Position numbers and translations under genes: made by a program
The notes under the pieces: model-generated
Told to the model about the DNA's origin: nothing
The model's input: only the letters and a program-made list of their open reading frames with translations
Database searches by the model: none
NCBI RefSeq assembly: GCF_900112205.1
Contig: NZ_FOKW01000002.1
Span: forward strand, 62,001-126,000
DNA length: 64,000 nucleotides
Direction of reading: 5' to 3'
Origin: Natronobacterium haloterrestre
GTDB taxonomy: Archaea > Halobacteriota > Halobacteria > Halobacteriales > Natrialbaceae
Shown: in pieces, positions 5,567 through 15,507 of the stretch
How positions within the stretch are numbered: the first letter of the stretch is position 1
Layout of the letters: every line of letters begins with the position of its first letter

Positions 5567-5602
5567 CCACTGCTGGGATTCGTGGGTCGTGGGCCGCGTG
5601 TC

Positions 5603-6445
5603 CTACCGCTCTCGCTCCACGACGAACTCGGCCAGTTCGAGGAGGTACTCCTTCGCCTCCGGGTCGACGACGTCGACACGCTCCAGGGCGTCGATCGCTC
5701 GATCCGCTTCCGTCCGGGCGCGCGCGTTCGCTTCTTCGGGCGTGAGGTCGGTCACCTGGACGACGGAGGGGCGCTCGAGGGCGGCGTCGTGGCCCGTCGG
5801 CTTCCCCAGTTCGTCGGGGTCGGCGACGGCGTCGAGCACGTCGTCCCGGATCTGGAAGGCGACGCCGACACGCTCGGCGTATTCGCCGAGGGCCTCGACG
5901 GTGAACGGGTCGGAGTCGGCGGCGATCGCACCCAGTTCGGCGGCGGCCCGGAAGAGCGCGCCCGTTTTCCGGCGTGCGAGAGTCATGTACTCTTCCTCGT
6001 TTCCGGGTTTGGCCGACAGTTCCGTCGCCTCGCCGATGCCCAGTTCCACCATCGCCTCCGCGACGACTTGCGTCGCGCGCGGATCGGTCGAGAAGAGCGC
6101 GAACGCTTCACCGAGGAGTCCGTCGCTCGTGATGATCGCCGGCCCGTGGCCGAACTCGGCCCACGCGCTAGCGGTTCCTCGACGGAGTTCGGAGCGGTCG
6201 ATGATGTCGTCGATCACCAGCGAGGCGTTGTGGACGAGTTCGATGCCGACGCCGAACTCGACGGCCTCCTCCGCGGTGCCGCCGACCGTCTCGCAGGCAA
6301 GCAGAGTGATCATCGGTCGAACACGCTTTCCGCCGGAGAGCGTCACGTGGCGAACTTCCTCGTTGAGCGTCTCGGGCTCGAGTCCGTCAACGACGTCGGT
6401 GAGGCGCTCTTCGATCAGCGCCCGACGGCGCTCGAGAAGTTCCAT
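5603..6445 (-). CDS. idsA: Geranylgeranyl diphosphate synthase (polyprenyl synthetase)
   Basis: 280 aa, a normal length for a short-chain trans-prenyltransferase. It condenses isopentenyl diphosphate with allylic diphosphates to make the C20 chains of archaeal lipids and carotenoids. The first Asp-rich motif is DDIID (79-83), with GGKRVRP upstream (38-44) and SELRRG after it. The second is DDVLD (201-205), preceded by FQIR and followed by a GKPTGHDA segment. A TATA-like CGTATTTTTC lies at 6466-6475, about 25 nt from the ATG (leaderless). The promoter and first 12 codons are duplicated at 10809-10884 on the far side of the chemotaxis operon. Confidence 0.93.
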   Translation of the reverse strand: MELLERRRALIEERLTDVVDGLEPETLNEEVRHVTLSGGKRVRPMITLLACETVGGTAEEAVEFGVGIELVHNASLVIDDIIDRSELRRGTASAWAEFGHGPAIITSDGLLGEAFALFSTDPRATQVVAEAMVELGIGEATELSAKPGNEEEYMTLARRKTGALFRAAAELGAIAADSDPFTVEALGEYAERVGVAFQIRDDVLDAVADPDELGKPTGHDAALERPSVVQVTDLTPEEANARARTEADRAIDALERVDVVDPEAKEYLLELAEFVVERER

Positions 6446-6483
6446 TACCCGCGCTTAGGACGGGGGTGAAAAATACGTGACGG
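6408..6483. repeat. Direct repeat copy A (idsA start and promoter)
   Basis: This 76-nt stretch, covering the first 12 idsA codons and the promoter, recurs in the same orientation at 10809-10884. By eye about 65 of 76 positions match. Together the two copies bracket the transducer and binding-protein operon. Confidence 0.85.
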
Positions 6484-6607
6484 TTCGGAAAGGTTCGAAT
6501 TCCTTCGTTTCGTCCGTGTCACTGCCGACAGAGTCGTCGTGTCGTTCTCTATTATATCACTGTTCAGCCATCACTATTATAATTCATTTTACATTCTTAT
6601 CTCTCGG

Positions 6608-8971
6608 TCAGTAGTCTCCGTCCTCGCCGAGACCCGTCTCGATTACACTGGGTCGATCGCTTTCCTCTCTCGTCGCACGATGGTCCGCCCCTCTCTGTCC
6701 GAGTTCGAAGTGGTCGAGCGTTTCACTCAGCTGAGACGCTTGATCGGCGAGCGAACTGGCGCTTTCCGAGACCTCCGAGAGCGCGGACGTCTGTTCCTCG
6801 GCTGCAGCGGCGACGCTCTGTGACTCTTCGGCGGTCGATTCAGCGATTTCCGTCGCCGAGGAGATCATTGCGAGGATTTCCTGTGTCGACGCAGCCTGCT
6901 GTTGTGTGGCGGCGGAAATCTCCTGGACGCCATCGTTGGTGTTTTCGGCGCGGTCGGCGATTTCGTCCAGTGCAGTGGCTGCGTCCTCGACCGAATCGAC
7001 GTGTTCGGAGATACGAGTTGCCGTTCGCTCGACGTCCGCGACGGTTTCCGACGTCCGATCGTTGATGCGGTCCAGCCGATCCTCGATGTCTTCGGCAGTC
7101 GATCTGGTGTCCTCTGCCAACTCTTTGACCTGCGTTGCAACGACATCGAAGCCAGCACCGTCAGCGGTGTCACCGCGTGCTGCCTCGATGTTCGCGTTCA
7201 AGGCGAGCATATTCGTCTCACGAGCGATATCCGTAATCAACTCGACCAGTTCGTCGACCTGTGCCATCTTCGTCTCGAGGTCACGAATTGCCTCGACCGC
7301 CTCCTCGGATTCGGCTTCGATCTCGTGCATGCCGTCGATCGCCTCTTTGGCGGCTTCTCGCCCATTACGGCCGGTTTCAGCCATTTGCGAGGCCATGTCG
7401 GCGACCTCGCTCGAGGAGGCCGCGATCTCTTCGGTCGTCGTCGATAGGGTTTCCATCTCTCGGTCGACCGTCTGCAGGGACTCGTTCTGGTCCTCGGCTC
7501 CGTCGGAAATCTCCTGAATCGATTCGGAGACCTGCTGAGACGCTGCTTGCACTTCTTGTGCGCTCGCAGTTACCTGTTCACTGGCTGCGGCAACCTCGTC
7601 CGCGAACGCTCTGACGTCCGCCGTCGTCTCCTCGAGTTGTGCGACCATCTCGTTGAACGCGACCGCGATGTCGGTCATCGCATCGCTCTCGCTTTCGGGA
7701 TCGAGTCGCCGGGTGAGGTCACCGTCAGCACAGGCGGCCATCGTCGTGCTGAATTCCTCGGCTTTCCGCTCCAGGTGACGGGTCATCCGTTCGATCTCCT
7801 CGCGCTCCGCCTCGGCCTCGCGTTTGGCCGCTTCAGCCTCACGCTGTGCCTCGGTCGCCTCTTCCCGCTTCTGTTCGGCCTCTTCCCGGGCCCCTTCGGC
7901 TTCCTCGATTTGCTCGCGAAGCGACGTCCGCATCGCATCGAAGCCGTCGAACAACTGTCCGATCTCGTCGGTTCGGTTCGTCTCGAGATCGACTTCGAGG
8001 TCACCAGCTTCCATCGATGCTGCCCGGTCACGGAGGGTCGTTACCGGCCCGACGGTCTGTCGACCGAGAACGACCCCGATCAGACTCAGGACACCCAGGT
8101 TCAGGGCGAGCATGAGCAGGATGTTGTTTCCGACGCTGGCTGCGACACCGTAGGCTTCGTCGGTCGGGACGCTCGAGACGGCGACCCACTGGGTGTCACT
8201 CACCGGGACGTACGAGTGGACTCGCTGTTCGTCGGTCACCAACTGTGATCGACCGCCGAGAGCCGCCTCGAGGGCCTCCTCGTCGGCATCGACTGTGGCG
8301 TGGTCGGCCTGGAACACGTCGTTGCCCTCCGCGTCGAGGATGAGCGTCGACTGTGACGTGTCGTCTTCCTGTAACTGTTCGATCTGGTACTCGAGAGTAC
8401 CGATCACGACGACGACGCGGTCGTCGCGATCCTGGACTGGGCTGGCAAACGCCATCACCTGATCTTCCAGGGTGGGTGATTCGTACGCTTCCGGCGTGTG
8501 CCAGACTTCTTCGTCCAGCATGAACTCCGCGTCGAAGTCGTGATCGCTCCATGGCTCCTCGAGATCCGCGAGCGGTCTGTCGCGATAGGCGGCGGTCGTG
8601 CTGGTGACGATTTCGTCCGATTCGGTGTCGAGGTAGTGGATTGCGCGGACGTTGACGCCCATTCGAGCCTGTTCTTCGACGAGGTGGGCCTGTACTTCCT
8701 GTGGGTTACCCTCCTGGAGGACGGGCGAGGCCGACGCGGTACGGGTCTGGACGGAGAGTGACTCCATCCAGGAACTGATTTCGTCGGCCTGCATTTCGGC
8801 GGTCGTTTTCAACTGCGTGTTGGCGTCGTCCTGAACGGTGTTGTCGACGTAGACGTAGCTGCCGGCGCCGACGACGCTCATGACGAGGACGACGACCAGG
8901 ATAGCGAGGACGAACTTGGCGAGATAACTGCGCCTGATGAACGACGGGACGAGTGTTGTTGCGAGTGACAT
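6608..8971 (-). CDS. Methyl-accepting chemotaxis transducer (Htr), BasT/CosT-like
   Basis: 787 aa. A membrane helix at about 19-42 (FVLAILVVVLVMSVVGAG) is followed by an extracytoplasmic Cache-like sensor (about 43-280) and a second membrane helix (NNILLMLALNLGVLSLIGV, 282-300). A HAMP domain (about 304-356) leads to long Glu/Ala coiled coils with a second HAMP-like segment. The MCP signalling domain carries the hairpin tip motif ETNMLALNANIEAARG. It signals to CheA/CheW and the archaellum. The gene starts 4 nt after the stop of the binding-protein gene, so they form one operon and the binding protein probably delivers its ligand to this receptor, as for halobacterial BasB/BasT. Longer upstream reading in this frame is a shadow of that gene. 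Confidence 0.9.
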   Translation of the reverse strand: MSLATTLVPSFIRRSYLAKFVLAILVVVLVMSVVGAGSYVYVDNTVQDDANTQLKTTAEMQADEISSWMESLSVQTRTASASPVLQEGNPQEVQAHLVEEQARMGVNVRAIHYLDTESDEIVTSTTAAYRDRPLADLEEPWSDHDFDAEFMLDEEVWHTPEAYESPTLEDQVMAFASPVQDRDDRVVVVIGTLEYQIEQLQEDDTSQSTLILDAEGNDVFQADHATVDADEEALEAALGGRSQLVTDEQRVHSYVPVSDTQWVAVSSVPTDEAYGVAASVGNNILLMLALNLGVLSLIGVVLGRQTVGPVTTLRDRAASMEAGDLEVDLETNRTDEIGQLFDGFDAMRTSLREQIEEAEGAREEAEQKREEATEAQREAEAAKREAEAEREEIERMTRHLERKAEEFSTTMAACADGDLTRRLDPESESDAMTDIAVAFNEMVAQLEETTADVRAFADEVAAASEQVTASAQEVQAASQQVSESIQEISDGAEDQNESLQTVDREMETLSTTTEEIAASSSEVADMASQMAETGRNGREAAKEAIDGMHEIEAESEEAVEAIRDLETKMAQVDELVELITDIARETNMLALNANIEAARGDTADGAGFDVVATQVKELAEDTRSTAEDIEDRLDRINDRTSETVADVERTATRISEHVDSVEDAATALDEIADRAENTNDGVQEISAATQQQAASTQEILAMISSATEIAESTAEESQSVAAAAEEQTSALSEVSESASSLADQASQLSETLDHFELGQRGADHRATREESDRPSVIETGLGEDGDY

Positions 8972-8975
8972 GGTG

Positions 8976-10253
8976 TTAGTATGGATCGAGACGGTCGATT
9001 TCCGTGATGCCGGTGTCAGCAGTGCTGTCGAACTCCCAGTATTCGAAGGTCGTGTCGGTGGGGTCGCCGTTGTCGTCGAAGCCGGTTTCGTTGGCCGCGC
9101 CGCGGTATTCGACGGTCGAGCCCTGCGCGGCGAGTCTGATGCCCTCGGCGATCGTATCAGGGGTAATTTCTTCGCCGCCGGGGCTCGTGACGGTGTGAAT
9201 GGCGTTCTGGATCGCCTGGCCGTCGTTTTGGCCGGCGTATGCGTTTGCGAGCAAGAGCACGGCGGTCGCGTCGTAGGCGTAGAACGCGAAGAGATCGGGG
9301 TCGCCGGTGTGGGCGTCGGTGTATAGCTCGGTGAAGGTGTCGATGCCGGGGCCGTCGATGAGCGGTGCGGTTCCCCTGACCCCATCGAGTGGGTAGTCGA
9401 CCTGTTCGTGAAGGTCGCCAAGGCGGATGGCGTCTGTACACAACAGGTCGAAGGTGCCGTCGGGGTCGAGATCGGTAAACAGCGTCTGGGCCATTTCGGG
9501 GTAGATCGCCGGGATCACCAGGTCCGGATCCGCTTCGGTGAGTCGGTCGATAGCGCTGTCGTAGGAGTCTGCAGTGACTTCGACGGGGACGTGATCGGTG
9601 ATCGTGCCGTCGTGAGTGGTTTCGAACGCGCGCTCGAAGGCCTGGCTGAGTTGCCAGCCGTAGTCGTTGTTGACATACAGCGTTGCAGCGGTATCGACGC
9701 CCCGTTCGGTCGCGGCAACGTCGGCCATGACTGCCCCCTGAACGGCATCGGAGAGTGCTGTCCGAAAGACGAACCCCCCGTCGTTGAGCGTGGTGAGAGT
9801 CGGGGTCGTCGCTGCAGGCGAACAGGCGGTAATCTGGTATGGAATGAGCACCTGCTGGGTCGCCTGCAAGACGATATCGGAGTCGAGCGGCCCCGTCACC
9901 ATCGGATAGCCGTCGTCGACGAGCGATGCCGCCGCCTGGGCAGCGGTCACCGGATCGCTTTCGGTATCCGCTTCGGTGTACTCGATTTCGATCTCGAGAT
10001 CGGGATCGTCGCGGGCCTGCTGGATAGGGAGGGTGGCAGCGGCGAGGATGTCTTCGCCGACGGCGCTGCGTGGACCGCTAAGCGGGAGCAGAATACCGAG
10101 TTTGATCGTCCGATCGATGCTACGAGTTCCGACGCTAGAACCGGCTGTCCCGGAATCGATGCCGGGAATCGCGTCGGTACAACCGGCGAGGCCGGCGAGG
10201 GAAGCACCGGCAATCCCCGAAAGTAGTCGTCGTCTGGTCGAATTGCTGCCCAT
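8976..10253 (-). CDS. Tat lipoprotein, branched-chain amino acid/urea-type periplasmic binding protein
   Basis: 425 aa. The ATG at 10253 gives STRRRLLSG (twin arginine) and a lipobox LAGC, so it is a Tat-exported, lipid-anchored surface protein. The mature part is a type I periplasmic-binding fold of the LivK class: KLGILLPLSGPRSAVGED, MVTGPLDSDIVLQATQQVL, ITACSPAATTPTL, AATLYVNNDYGWQLSQAF, LVIPAIYPEMAQ, FAFYAYDATAVLLLANAY. No ABC permease or ATPase genes are nearby. Instead it is immediately followed by a chemotaxis transducer, which points to a ligand-capture role in chemotaxis rather than uptake (inference from the BasB/CosB precedent). Ligand unknown. Confidence 0.9.
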   Translation of the reverse strand: MGSNSTRRRLLSGIAGASLAGLAGCTDAIPGIDSGTAGSSVGTRSIDRTIKLGILLPLSGPRSAVGEDILAAATLPIQQARDDPDLEIEIEYTEADTESDPVTAAQAAASLVDDGYPMVTGPLDSDIVLQATQQVLIPYQITACSPAATTPTLTTLNDGGFVFRTALSDAVQGAVMADVAATERGVDTAATLYVNNDYGWQLSQAFERAFETTHDGTITDHVPVEVTADSYDSAIDRLTEADPDLVIPAIYPEMAQTLFTDLDPDGTFDLLCTDAIRLGDLHEQVDYPLDGVRGTAPLIDGPGIDTFTELYTDAHTGDPDLFAFYAYDATAVLLLANAYAGQNDGQAIQNAIHTVTSPGGEEITPDTIAEGIRLAAQGSTVEYRGAANETGFDDNGDPTDTTFEYWEFDSTADTGITEIDRLDPY

Positions 10254-10270
10254 ATTACTGGGGTAAATTT

Positions 10271-10331
10271 TGCTGCATGTAGTTCTGATGGCCATTTTGG
10301 AGCCATCTACTACATTGTGCATGTATATATG
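10271..10331 (-). promoter_or_regulatory. Promoter and operator-like palindrome of the chemotaxis operon
   Basis: A TATA element (TATATAT, 10324-10330) should place the transcription start near 10299. Exactly there lies a perfect inverted repeat GATGGC-9 nt-GCCATC (10287-10307), nested in a longer imperfect one (TGCATGTAG against CTACATTGTGCA). The leader would be about 45 nt with no clear ribosome binding site. A repressor site or a leader hairpin would both fit. Confidence 0.5.
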
Positions 10332-10436
10332 AAGCCCAGAACCAATCGAGATATTATTCCGAACATATTTTAGCCTCTTCCCGAGGAGTTTGAAGATCAC
10401 TACCTTCTGATTGCTGGTGGCTCTACAGTGGTTGTC

Positions 10437-10620
10437 CGTCGTCACGGCCGGCGGCCGAAGCCGTGACGACAGATAGAGTCTCCCGCAAGAGCGCATCGTT
10501 GCGTCGTTGAGAACTCCCCCTCGAGGTGGGAATCCACCTGTAGCGACGGCTACGGCAGTCTACGCCTGAACACCTGGCTCGAATCCGGCGCTGCGGGTCG
10601 ATTCGACCCTGCAGTCGACG
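10437..10620. other. Hairpin and possible remnant of a decayed mobile element
   Basis: A perfect 11-bp stem (GTCGTCACGGC ... GCCGTGACGAC, 10438-10470 region) is followed by a smaller palindrome AGGTGG-GAAT-CCACCT. The sequence between has short broken reading frames and no credible gene. The layout resembles the end of an IS200/IS605-group element, but I cannot identify a parent. The rest of the 10254-11091 gap holds the promoter above and repeat copy B. Confidence 0.35.
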
Positions 10621-10684
10621 CCTGCAACGGGAACGGAAACGGTACTATGAGACGGTTCGCACCGAAGTCATCGACGGGACTCGG

Positions 10685-10846
10685 TCATGTCGGTTGTGGG
10701 GATCGAGAATGAGAGAACTGCGAGCGATTGCCGACCGTAGGTCTCTGTTTCGCTGGTAGCCGAGAAGAACCGGACGGGTACTCGTCTCGCCCGTGGGGGC
10801 ACCTGTCCTCTCCGATCAGCGCCCGACGGCGCTCGAGAACCCTCAT
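10685..10846 (-). pseudogene. Orphan idsA 5' fragment fused to unrelated sequence
   Basis: A 53-aa frame whose first 11 residues (MRVLERRRALI) copy the idsA N terminus and whose remainder shows no resemblance to prenyltransferases (no Asp-rich motifs). The duplicated promoter is still upstream. It is best read as recombination debris; expression as a micro-protein is possible but unsupported. Confidence 0.5.
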
Positions 10847-10884
10847 TACCTGCGCTCAGGACGGGGACGAAAAGTACGTGAGGG
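10809..10884. repeat. Direct repeat copy B (orphan idsA promoter and first codons)
   Basis: About 65 of 76 positions match 6408-6483. On the minus strand it keeps the promoter and an ATG (10846) followed by RVLERRRALI, against ELLERRRALI in idsA. Homology stops after codon 11-12 and the frame runs on as unrelated sequence to a stop at 10685, leaving an orphan 53-codon frame. Confidence 0.85.
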
Positions 10885-11091
10885 GCGCAACGTTCCGAGT
10901 TTCCGTGCCCTTCCGCTGGGGAACGCGGTCCAATTCTTCCTTCCCGTCCTGTCGCTGTCACGTTGTTTACTGCAGCGACGGTTGCGCCGACGAACCGTCC
11001 GCCTCGCTCCTGGCGTCGCTCGTCTCGAGACGGTCGAACACGTCGGGTGCCGTACCGAACGCTTCTTTTCCGCGAATCCGTAACACATACC

Positions 11092-12183
11092 ATGGTGGAT
11101 AGCCCGTCGACCCCCGTGCGGAGTGCCCTGGCCGCCGTCAGGCCACCACCACGGTTCGTCGACTGGTCGATCTTCACGGTCGTCGTGCTCGAGGCCGTTT
11201 CCGGGCTGGTCTCGTTTACCGTCGGCTCGCCGGCCGGCTGGCCGCTGTTCTGGCTCCACCGGATCCTCGGACTGACGCTCGTCGCGCTGCTGGGGTTCAA
11301 ATTCGCTCGCGTTCGACACCGGGTTCTCGAGACCGAACGGTGGCGCCCCTCGACGCTCCTGTCGATCCTCACCGTGATCGCGGCGACGGGAGCGATCGCG
11401 ACCGGGGTCCTCTGGACGTTCGGGCTGGACGTGGGACTCTCCTACTGGACGCTGCTGAGCGTCCACGTCGGGTTCGGGCTCGTCCTCGTTCCGCTGATGG
11501 TGTGGCACCTCTCGACCCGGTTCCGGCTCCCGAAACGGCGCGACTTCGACCGTCGCCGGACGACGCTCGAGTACGCGGCGCTGCTGGCCGGTGGGGCCCT
11601 CGTCTATCGCACCCAGGAGTTCCTCAATCGCGCCCTCGAGACGCCCGGGGCGGACCGCCGGTTCACCGGGTCCCAGCCCCGTGAAGGGAGGGGCAACGGG
11701 AGTTTTCCGGTCACCTCGTGGGTCGCGGACGACCCCGATCCGATCGACCCGTCGGCGTGGACGCTAACGATCCGGGGCGAGGTCGAAACCCCGCTCGAGT
11801 ACTCCTACGACGAGTTGGCGCCCACCAGCGACGAGCGGGCGCTTTTGGACTGTACGAGCGGCTGGTACACCGTCCAGCGGTGGCGCGGCATCCGCGTGGG
11901 GGACCTGCTCGCGGCAGCCGACGTTCGGGACGGGGCGGCGTTCGTGCGGTTCGTCTCGGTGACCGGCTACCGGTGGTCGCTGCCGCTCGAGGAGGCGCGA
12001 GAGGCGTTGCTCGCGACCCACGTCGGCGGCGAACGGTTGAGCCACGGCCACGGCGCGCCGATGCGCCTTGTCGCCCCCGGACGGCGCGGATTCCAGTGGG
12101 TCAAGTGGCTCGAGCGGGTGGAGGTCCGCCGGCGGTCCGATCCGGCCCAGTGGGTCGTGACGCTGGTCAGCGGGTTCGACTGA
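11092..12183 (+). CDS. Cytochrome b-like / molybdopterin oxidoreductase fusion
   Basis: 363 aa. Residues 22-145 hold four membrane helices with His56, His125 and His139 at helix ends, as in heme-binding cytochrome b-like anchors. Residues about 205-360 are a sulfite-oxidase/YedY-type molybdopterin domain (WTLTIRGEVETPLEYSYDEL; LLDCTSGW with Cys254 as the likely Mo ligand; then SVTGYRWSLPLEEA and the MRLVAPGRRGFQWVKWL segment). It is therefore a self-contained membrane oxidoreductase that could pass electrons from a Mo-cofactor site to heme or quinone. YedY-type partners are usually separate genes. Substrate unknown. A basic cytoplasmic loop (RFRLPKRRDFDRRR) follows helix 4. Confidence 0.85.
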   Translation: MVDSPSTPVRSALAAVRPPPRFVDWSIFTVVVLEAVSGLVSFTVGSPAGWPLFWLHRILGLTLVALLGFKFARVRHRVLETERWRPSTLLSILTVIAATGAIATGVLWTFGLDVGLSYWTLLSVHVGFGLVLVPLMVWHLSTRFRLPKRRDFDRRRTTLEYAALLAGGALVYRTQEFLNRALETPGADRRFTGSQPREGRGNGSFPVTSWVADDPDPIDPSAWTLTIRGEVETPLEYSYDELAPTSDERALLDCTSGWYTVQRWRGIRVGDLLAAADVRDGAAFVRFVSVTGYRWSLPLEEAREALLATHVGGERLSHGHGAPMRLVAPGRRGFQWVKWLERVEVRRRSDPAQWVVTLVSGFD

Positions 12184-12235: not shown

Positions 12236-12379
12236 CGGAGAATCAAGGAGAAAGCCCCGTCCTTCGGGATGGGGATGAATCCGACACTACCCTACACCAG
12301 CCACCATTCGATGGCACGGCAGGATATTCCACGCTGCGCAATCTATACCTTCAAGTAGGATTGTCTACATTAGTTACGT

Positions 12380-13715
12380 ATGGCGAAAGAGGTCGTCACC
12401 CGCACCTTCACTGCTTCCATACGGAACCAGCAACAGGTGTCCGACGACCTTGATTCGCTCGGGTTCTCAGCCTCGAAACTCTGGAACGTCGGACGGTGGA
12501 CAATCAGTCGTGTTTGGGATGAAATCAACTACATCCCTGAACACGACGAACTCACCGCGTACCTCAAGAGCCACGAACGCTACGATGACCTGCATTCTCA
12601 GTCAAGTTCGTTCGAGACGCCGAAGCCGTCTCGTGATGCCAATGAGCTTCGCTCATTGAGCACAGCGAGTCCTCCAAGAACTCTCTGAGGCGTTCAACGG
12701 CTGGTACGGCAAACGGCGCAACGGAGACACGAACGCGAACCCGCCCGGCTACCGCAAACACGGCGACGAACACCCACGTTCCACAGTCACGTTCAAAGCC
12801 GCTGGCTTCAAATTCGACACCCAGTACAACCGCGTTCGACTCTCCAAAGGGTCGAACCTCAGGGACTACTGGTCGGACTTCATCCTCTGTGAATACCAGA
12901 CCCGCCCCGACGTTGACCTCTCGACCGTAGAGAGCGTTCAACAAGTCAGGGCTGTTTGGGCAGGGGATGAATGGGAACTGCACTTTGTCTGTAAGGTCGA
13001 AATCGAAGTGTCTGAAGCACCCGGTGAGAAGACCGTCGGTGTCGATCCCGGTATCAACAACTTCGCGGCACTCGCCTACGAAGATGGTCACGCTGAACTG
13101 TACCCGCTGAACTGTCTGAAGCAAGATGACTACTACTTCAGCAAGCGGATCGCTCGGTGTGACGATTCGGACTCCGAGCAGGCCACGCGACTGGACCAGA
13201 AGAAGTCTCGCCGGCGCACTCACTACTTCCACACGCTCTCAAAACACATCGTCCAGCGGTGTGTTGACGAGGGTGTTGGAACCATCGTGGTTGGCGACCT
13301 CTCCGGTATCCGCGAAGACGATGAGAACGGTGAGGCGAAGGACTGGGGGAAGCATGGCAATCTTGACTTGCACTCGTGGGCGTTCGACCGCTTCACTGAC
13401 CTGCTCGAATACAAGGCCGAGATGGAGGGCATCACGGTCGAAGAAGTGTCCGAGCGAGATACGTCGAAGTCGTGTTCGTGTTGTGGTCGCAAACGTGACG
13501 CGAACCGTGTTGAACGCGGGTTGTACGTGTGCGACGAATGCGATATGGTGGCGAACGCAGATGTGAACGGTGCTGAGAACATTCGGCAGAAAGTATCTCC
13601 GAGTCCCGCCACGGATGGCGGCGATAGGAGTAACGGCTGGTTGGCACAGCCATCGACGTTCCTGTTTGACAAGGAAACTGGCGCGTTCGCGCCTCAAGAA
13701 CCGGTCACGTCGTAA
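12380..13715 (+). pseudogene. tnpB: tnpB (RNA-guided nuclease of IS200/IS605 elements), interrupted
   Basis: The N-terminal part (12380-12606) reads MAKEVVTRTFTASIRNQQQV with the expected helix-rich start. A 56-nt insert (12607-12662) shifts the frame and a stop follows at 12686. The proper frame resumes at 12663 (QRVLQELSEAFNGWY) and runs to 13715. It contains the RuvC first Asp (KTVGVDPGINNFA), the middle acidic position (IVVGDLSG, Asp rather than the usual Glu), a CxxC...CxxC zinc ribbon (SCSCCGRKRD, YVCDECD) and the last Asp (ANADVNGAENI). Removing the insert would restore a normal 400-plus residue TnpB, so inactivation looks recent. An internal ATG at 13008 would give only the nuclease half. 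Confidence 0.88.
12607..12662 (+). repeat. 56-nt double-hairpin insertion within tnpB
   Basis: Two back-to-back perfect hairpins: CGAGACG-7 nt-CGTCTCG (12613-12633) and CAATGAGC-TTC-GCTCATTG (12640-12658). The flanks join as a continuous TnpB frame when it is removed (SQSS|QRVLQ). The net frame shift is +1. Confidence 0.8.
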
Positions 13716-13765
13716 ACCACAATATCCCAACGCGGGAATCCTCTCCCTTCAGGGCGGGGAGGATG

Positions 13766-14719
13766 TCAATGGAACTCCTCGGTCAGCGCCGGGACCACGT
13801 CGAACAGGTCGTCCGTGATCGCGTAATCGGCGATGTCCATGATCGGCGCGTTCGGGTCGGTGTTGATCGCGACGATCGTATCGGAGCCTTTCATGCCGGC
13901 GACGTGCTGGACCGCGCCGGAGATGCCGATCGCGATGTAGACGTCGGGCGTGACGACCTTCCCGGACTGGCCGACCTGCCGGTTCTTCGGCAGCCAGCCG
14001 TTGTCGACGATCGGGCGGGAGGCCGAGACAGTCGCGTCCAGCGCGTCCGCGAGTTCCTCGATGATCTCGAGGTTCTCTTCCTCCTCGATGCCACGGCCGA
14101 CCGAGACCAGCACGTCGGCCTCGCTGATGTCGACGTCGCCGCCGCCGACCTCCTCGAAGCCGTTGACCGTCGTGCCGAGTGCGTCCTCGTCGATATCGGC
14201 GTCGAAGGCCTCGATCGCGGCGTCGCCGGTGCCCTCCGCGGCGGGCCACTCGGCGCCGCGAATCGTCACGACCGCGGGCCCCTCGAGTTCGGTCGTCGTC
14301 TCGACCTTGCCGCCGTACATCTCGCGGGTCGCTGTCAGCGTCTCGCCGTCGGTCTCGAGGGCGACGGTGTCGGTGACGATCGGCAGGTCGAGTTCGTTCG
14401 CGACGGCCGGCGCGTAGTCGAGGCCGTTGACGCTGTTGGGCGTCAGGACGTACTGGGGCGCGAGTTCGTCGTACAGCTGGGTCGTCGCCTGGGTGTAGAC
14501 GCCGTGGTTGAACTCCTCGCCGTAGTCGACGGTGTGGACGGCGTCGACGCCCTCGCGATTGAGCTTGTCGGCGAACTCGTCGACGGTGCCGCTGATGACC
14601 GCGACGTGGAGGTCGCCGCCGGTTTCGTCCGCGAGTTCGCGGCCGGCGGTGACGAGTTCGTAGCTGACGTCGCGGAGGTCTCCGCGGCGGTGGTCCGCCA
14701 CGACGAGGACGTCCGTCAT
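13766..14719 (-). CDS. etfA: Electron transfer flavoprotein alpha subunit
   Basis: 317 aa. EtfA carries FAD and passes electrons from acyl-CoA and other dehydrogenases to the quinone pool through ETF:quinone oxidoreductase. The N-terminal domain begins [23 protein letters not shown]. The C-terminal FAD domain shows [54 protein letters not shown] and APIMDIADY, all conserved for this family. It overlaps etfB by 4 nt (ATGA), so they are translationally coupled. The insertion sequence abuts its stop codon and has displaced the likely terminator. Confidence 0.95.
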
Positions 14720-15507
14720 GGTGCCACCCCCTTGTCGCGGAGGAGATCACCGAGCTCTCCGGCGGTTTCCTCTGCACTCCCCTCCCAGACGGTGACGTCG
14801 CTCTCGCTTTCGGGCTCGTACATGTCGGTCAGTTCGAGGTCCGAGTCGACGACCCCCTCGTCGACGCCGACGTCGGCCAGCGACTGGACGTCGAGTTCCT
14901 TGCGCTGGGCCTGTCGGATGCCACGCAGGCTGGCGTAGCGTGGCTCGTTGATCCCGGTCTGGATCGTCAACACGGCCGGCAGTTCGACGTCGGTCAGTTC
15001 CTCGACGCCGCCCTCGAGTTCCCGGCGGACGGAGGCGATGCCGTCCTCGAGGTCGTGCTCGAGGTGGTTGACGACGGCGGCCCACTCGAAGCCGAGGTCT
15101 TCGGCCAGCGAGACGCCGGTCGCACCCCAGCTGTCGTCGCCGGACTGGACGCCCGAGAGGACGAGGTCGGGGTCTTCCTCCTCGACGACGCCGCGCAGGA
15201 TCTCGGTCTTGGCCTCGACGTCGAGCAGGTCGACGCCCTCGAGGGCGTCGTCCCAGACGCGGATCGCACGGTCCGCGCCCTTGGCGAGCGCCTGCCGGAT
15301 GGTCTGTTCGCAGTCTTCCGGACCGATCGTGACCGTGACGACTTCGTCGGCGATACCGGCCTCCTGGAGCTGGACGGCCTCCTCGACGGCGTAATCGTCC
15401 CACTCGTTCAGGTCGGCACCGAGGTACTGATCCGCGATCTCAGTCCCCTCGATTTCGAACTCGTCTTCCACGGTCGCGACCTCTTTGACCGTAACGAGGA
15501 TTTTCAT
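14716..15507 (-). CDS. etfB: Electron transfer flavoprotein beta subunit
   Basis: 263 aa, normal length. It opens MKILVTVKEVATVEDEFEIE and carries the adenine-nucleotide fold elements of EtfB: LNEWDDYAVEEAVQLQE, VVTVTIGPEDCEQTIRQALAKGADRAIRV, DLVLSGVQSGDDSWGATGVSLAEDLG and PAVLTIQTGINEPRYASLRGI. Partner of EtfA in the heterodimer. It is the first gene of the pair and reads leftward into etfA with a 4-nt overlap. No ETF dehydrogenase (fixC-like) gene is adjacent in this window. Confidence 0.95.
   Translation of the reverse strand: MKILVTVKEVATVEDEFEIEGTEIADQYLGADLNEWDDYAVEEAVQLQEAGIADEVVTVTIGPEDCEQTIRQALAKGADRAIRVWDDALEGVDLLDVEAKTEILRGVVEEEDPDLVLSGVQSGDDSWGATGVSLAEDLGFEWAAVVNHLEHDLEDGIASVRRELEGGVEELTDVELPAVLTIQTGINEPRYASLRGIRQAQRKELDVQSLADVGVDEGVVDSDLELTDMYEPESESDVTVWEGSAEETAGELGDLLRDKGVAP

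Follow-up and report, generated by a model that had tools for sequence, protein, structure and literature searches.

The window analysed here, 64,000 nucleotides of the Natronobacterium haloterrestre genome, contains a two-gene chemotaxis operon (bas) between the isoprenyl diphosphate synthase gene idsA and a molybdopterin oxidoreductase gene, beyond which lie a transposon-like element and the genes etfA and etfB. We compared this genome (G000) with its sister species (G001) and the congeners G002, G003 and G004, using a search set of the five species of the genus and 125 family genomes, and examined idsA and its surroundings in 41 genomes, the window's own included. The features are as follows, in window coordinates.

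5603 to 6445, minus strand: idsA, intact, encoding a polyprenyl (short-chain isoprenyl) diphosphate synthase (Pfam PF00348, E 3e-56)
6407 to 6483, minus strand: left repeat copy, the live idsA promoter with codons 1 to 13 (repeat search)
6608 to 8971, minus strand: basT-like transducer, an MCP with a dCache-like sensor (below cut-off), HAMP and MCP signal domains (Pfam HAMP, MCPsignal)
8976 to 10253, minus strand: basB-like lipoprotein, a binding protein of branched-chain amino-acid type (Peripla_BP_6; Pfam PF13458, E 4e-33)
10254 to 10420, no strand: AT-rich region upstream of basB, where homology to congener G002 stops at 10299
10438 to 10470, no strand: 33-bp hairpin at the eroded joint, GTCGTCACGGC...GCCGTGACGAC, within the genus only in G000 and G001
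10473 to 10843, no strand: segment missing in G001 (G000–G001 comparison), made up of a degraded palindromic repeat, about 155 bp without an assigned source and idsA' codons 2 to 13
10554 to 10630, no strand: degraded copy of a palindromic interspersed repeat that is CTAG-flanked elsewhere, with dozens of copies in G002
10808 to 10884, minus strand: right repeat copy, the decaying stub of a second idsA (idsA'; repeat search, G001 comparison and family search)
10885 to 11056, no strand: spacer from the stub to the oxidoreductase gene, shared with G001 (83% identical), with no convincing relatives elsewhere
11092 to 12183, plus strand: membrane-anchored molybdopterin oxidoreductase with an Oxidored_molyb domain and, below cut-off, a cytochrome b561-like N-terminal part
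12237 to 13769, plus strand: IS200/IS605-type TnpB element with a frameshifted tnpB (sot0042 RNA family match, 192.5 bits)
13766 to 15507, minus strand: etfA and etfB, which bound a variable slot on its conserved far side (gene-order comparison)

The first-pass annotation had seen the 5' end of idsA at both ends of the block, and our repeat search recovered it there as a 77-nt direct pair (6407–6483 and 10808–10884, spacing 4401 bp) with 66 of 77 bases the same (86%); the 11 mismatches counted bear out the earlier figure of about 11 between diverged copies. The repeat spans idsA codons 1 to 13, counted from the minus-strand start at 6445, together with some 38 bp of promoter, and comparison through the sister species extends the homology of the copies to about 6508, roughly −63 from the start codon. 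This is a true duplication, and recombination, as had been proposed, is its best explanation. The pair is the only one of its kind in the 4.5-Mb assembly (E 4e-19; next-best match E 0.2), and the further attachment-like copies that had been expected were not found: nothing comparable occurs in the same genome, and a second idsA start was detected only in G000 and G001 among the 125 family genomes. Two cargo genes flanked by direct repeats could represent a site-specifically integrated element with the repeats as attL and attR, but no tRNA lies within the window, neither of the block's two genes encodes a recombinase or integrase, the genome has no other repeat copy, and the cargo is present without repeats in other genera, making this reading barely credible.

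The left copy belongs to a live gene whose protein is 100% identical in amino acids between G000 and G001 and whose best NCBIfam match, IdsA_Meth (E 8e-57), falls below its cut-off. The live promoter carries a TATA-like TATTTT(T) in these two species only; other species and both stubs have TACTT. Across idsA and its upstream DNA (window 5597–6570), G000 and G001 differ at 4 of 174 fourfold sites, versus 12.7% in four neighbouring genes. This very low divergence suggests a recent recombination tract; a few other window genes are nearly as low.

The right copy is a stub. Its reading frame runs from the ATG for 53 aa and departs from idsA after codon 13 in G000; the G001 stub stops after its second codon, adjoining the hairpin, where G000 carries 335 bases more; the stretch next to its stub that G001 lacks measures 370 bp. 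Apart from these two species, family matches were either idsA itself or short chance matches in spacers. Over 96 aligned columns both stubs agree against the live copy in 29, mostly beyond −63 where homology had ended, and private changes number 7 and 5 in the two species; within the homologous part we counted by eye 6–7 stub-shared differences in about 62 sites. Because the stubs share differences from the live copy and each has changes of its own, the stub is older than the divergence of the two species, and it shows no obvious constraint. Stub and live copy are also similar at −40 to −63, and since this similarity is peculiar to them and absent from other species, the stub derives from their own lineage or from a closely related strain. 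A foreign donor was sought through the first 13 codons, which proved uninformative, G001, G004, G028 and G066 being identical there to the live copy. Orthology of the stub's upstream DNA to the idsA–etfA interval of G004 was rejected, as local alignment was no better than for shuffles (p 0.21–0.32).

Between the repeats, as the first-pass annotation described, the transducer and the binding protein are the only genes, lying on the same strand with 4 bp between them. The pair has the make-up of a BasB/BasT-type system, in that a Peripla_BP_6-type binding protein adjoins a transducer carrying both HAMP and MCP signal domains; the binding protein also matches NCBIfam PRK15404, below cut-off. In Halobacterium salinarum, BasB and BasT form a chemotaxis pair, and BasT mediates responses to Leu, Ile, Val, Met and Cys (Table 2 of PMC3579733). 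The window operon resembles that system in encoding a branched-chain amino-acid type binding protein beside such a transducer, and on its domains and gene pairing it is a putative pair of this type.

The AT-rich flanks noted earlier do exist (58–59% AT at 6484–6607 and 10254–10420, versus 37–39% in both bas genes), but both fall in the operon's intergenic and promoter DNA and are not in themselves a mark of foreign origin. Nor did the operon prove to be a foreign or integrated module. The order idsA-basT-basB-etfA was found at 14 of the 41 idsA loci, in eight genera and with unchanged orientation, and transducer and binding protein each occupy the same place in related genera; in one further locus (G112) the bas pair lies 2.5 kb from idsA, with etfA not seen. 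It had been supposed that relatives would lack the block and retain one repeat; instead, the block genes are in place in eight genera without a second repeat. This distribution points to an old occupant of the interval and not to an insertion peculiar to this genome. Relatives lacking bas also exist, and the overall pattern is one of scattered losses and replacements. On gene order and divergence together, the bas operon is a long-standing resident of the locus.

Silent sites agree with this placement. Fourfold-site divergence between G000 and G002 is 32.8% for the transducer and 40.6% for the binding protein, against a median of 37.5% (IQR 32–43) for 28 window genes. This is an ordinary level for orthologs, so bas is not a recent import; the operon has been diverging over roughly the same time as the genes around it, which fits vertical descent. 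The bas tree places G002 as sister to G000 and G001, and the core-gene tree of the genus is ((G003,G002),(G004,(G000,G001))). Amino-acid divergence of bas between G000 and G002 is 13%, lower relative to core genes than in other species pairs, which leaves room for a later exchange of bas. In G003 the bas pair at the same place is only 50–55% identical to that of G000 and G002, with flanks of about 90%, and is likely a xenologous replacement.

These data bear on an alternative in which bas itself is the newcomer. An ancestor of G000 and G001 that had lost bas, arranged idsA-oxidoreductase-etf, would have received an idsA(5')-basT-basB fragment from a relative by recombination within idsA, with illegitimate closure or a Campbell-type circle, moving the old idsA start to the right. 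The anatomy produced would be the same, the nearest congener (G004) lacks bas and has etfA directly after idsA, the amino-acid divergence from G002 is low for a species pair, and the ancestral TACTT box survives in the right copy. Yet bas would have to be lost and then regained in the same place and orientation, its silent-site divergence from G002 is that of vertical orthologs, and in the idsA tree G000 and G001 group with G004 as they do in the core tree. We regard this alternative as unlikely, although it is the main rival to our preferred account; parsimony and silent-site divergence favour bas as the resident.

On comparative grounds, the newcomer is the oxidoreductase gene just outside the block, in G000 and G001. 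It adjoins etfA in these two species only, and its homologs from other genera, with aa identity of up to 79%, lie at unrelated loci, at least 60 kb from idsA where both are on one contig. DNA homology begins about 35 bp ahead of its ATG. It had been expected that relatives would have idsA beside the oxidoreductase gene without the block; this order appeared in no genome examined, and idsA was not near the oxidoreductase gene at any of 80 further haloarchaeal loci, mostly from Halorubrum, Natrinema, Haloferax and Halobellus.

The joint between the operon and the oxidoreductase gene is eroded. What had been read as a single remnant at 10437–10620 does correspond to real features there, but they are two: the 33-bp hairpin at 10438–10470 and the degraded palindromic repeat at 10554–10630. 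Copies of the repeat, about 85 bp and CTAG-flanked, occur in G002 and G003, and the family looks like a MITE or REP-like one. Within 10473–10807 the interspersed repeat alone matches anything in the family genomes, and 10380–10810 gave no match to plasmids. Further right, a G001-conserved peptide at 10960–11080 resembled the transducer C-terminus, and a remnant of a second basT was considered and rejected because tblastn found nothing convincing outside the two loci themselves, the best other hit (E 0.007) falling in an unrelated place. The only Rfam match in the spacer was isrG, at 13.6 bits versus a cut-off of 100.

We propose, with a probability of roughly 60%, that a single non-homologous joint fused two contents of the same slot, idsA-bas-etf and idsA-oxidoreductase-etf, and left the stub of a second idsA; the fusion, the donor allele and the direction of transfer are read from the anatomy. 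In the ancestor of G000 and G001, a resident allele idsA-basT-basB-etfA would have met an allele with the oxidoreductase gene in the idsA–etfA interval. One side would have been anchored by homology in the etf genes, and on the other a non-homologous joint would have linked the region upstream of basB to the inside of the second allele's idsA. The product would be idsA-basT-basB-[stub of idsA']-oxidoreductase-etfA, and the redundant stub would then have decayed, to 13 codons in G000 and 2 in G001. On the etf side the locus is clean, its sequences grouping within the genus; the joint on the other side is eroded. Trees of idsA, the gene left of idsA and etfA/etfB all place G000 and G001 inside the genus, without any indication of foreign flanks. 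The donor allele is hypothetical because idsA-oxidoreductase-etfA occurs in no extant genome found, and the degraded repeat and about 155 bp of unassigned DNA in G000, together with the deletion in G001, make the exact joint unreadable.

Two other routes could also place an idsA start to the right of basB. Template switching during repair may have inserted about 100 bp of idsA start sequence at the break into which the oxidoreductase gene was joined; the surviving copy is that short, it sits at the edge of the new gene, and stub and live copy share one lineage. Against such a templated insertion, the stubs differ in length between the sisters and the joint itself carries a deletion or insertion, which means that the ancestral copy may have far exceeded what survives, and we consider this route quite improbable. 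If idsA-bas had been duplicated in tandem and the second bas copy then lost, the position would be the same, but nothing resembling bas was recognised from the stub to the oxidoreductase gene, and the stub's similarity to the left side stops at about −63, which leaves this origin highly improbable.

The proposed fusion has parallels in bacteria. Homology-facilitated illegitimate recombination (HFIR), which combines one homologous and one non-homologous joint, has been reported from three naturally competent bacteria and put to the test in conjugation experiments with E. coli (PMC3240628). It would leave a truncated copy of the anchor or neighbour gene beside new DNA, as at this locus; here, however, the process is deduced from anatomy in an archaeon, the joint is eroded, and no donor allele turned up, an absence compatible with the mechanism. 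An HFIR-like mechanism has also been proposed for the T6SS effector-immunity arrays of Vibrio cholerae, in which older content has been displaced and its remnants persist (PMC5361080). Both cases have new cargo at a fixed slot beside conserved genes, with older content shifted and remnants kept, but the Vibrio arrays stack immunity genes through repeated events, whereas our locus would record one event and the stub of a housekeeping gene. If the fusion is correct, the locus offers an archaeal example of one-sided non-homologous recombination with stub decay, datable by two sister species.

In most of the 41 loci idsA is linked to etfA, with many different contents between them. Besides the loci with bas, the interval holds a lone different transducer in 4, is shorter than 500 bp in 9, and contains other genes or 0.8–2.9 kb of other DNA in 8; etfA was not seen within the fetched stretch in 5. 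The other genes, named by eye from translations, include serpin-like, MFS transporter, cupin and coiled-coil proteins. The 17 loci with a near-empty interval or other genes indicate that alternative alleles exist, and the interval may be a general cargo slot. If the fusion is correct, the locus identifies a slot in which sensory and metabolic genes are exchanged among members of the family. A broader and rather doubtful suggestion is that idsA–etfA is a haloarchaeal exchange slot driven by recombination without a dedicated enzyme, with conserved neighbours serving as homology arms and idsA'-type stubs recording past swaps; on this view the stub might also still serve as a promoter facing basB. 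The locus represents ordinary haloarchaeal genome remodelling, and it illustrates how a repeat around an operon can mislead: here the enclosed genes are old, and the new gene is their neighbour.

The idsA–basT spacer of G002 contains a CTAG-flanked palindrome similar to the interspersed repeat. The TnpB element is inserted in G000 only, with G001 keeping a clean empty site (TTAC|TGGAAC), and its insertion replaces the etfA stop, changing the last residue to H and supplying a new TGA.
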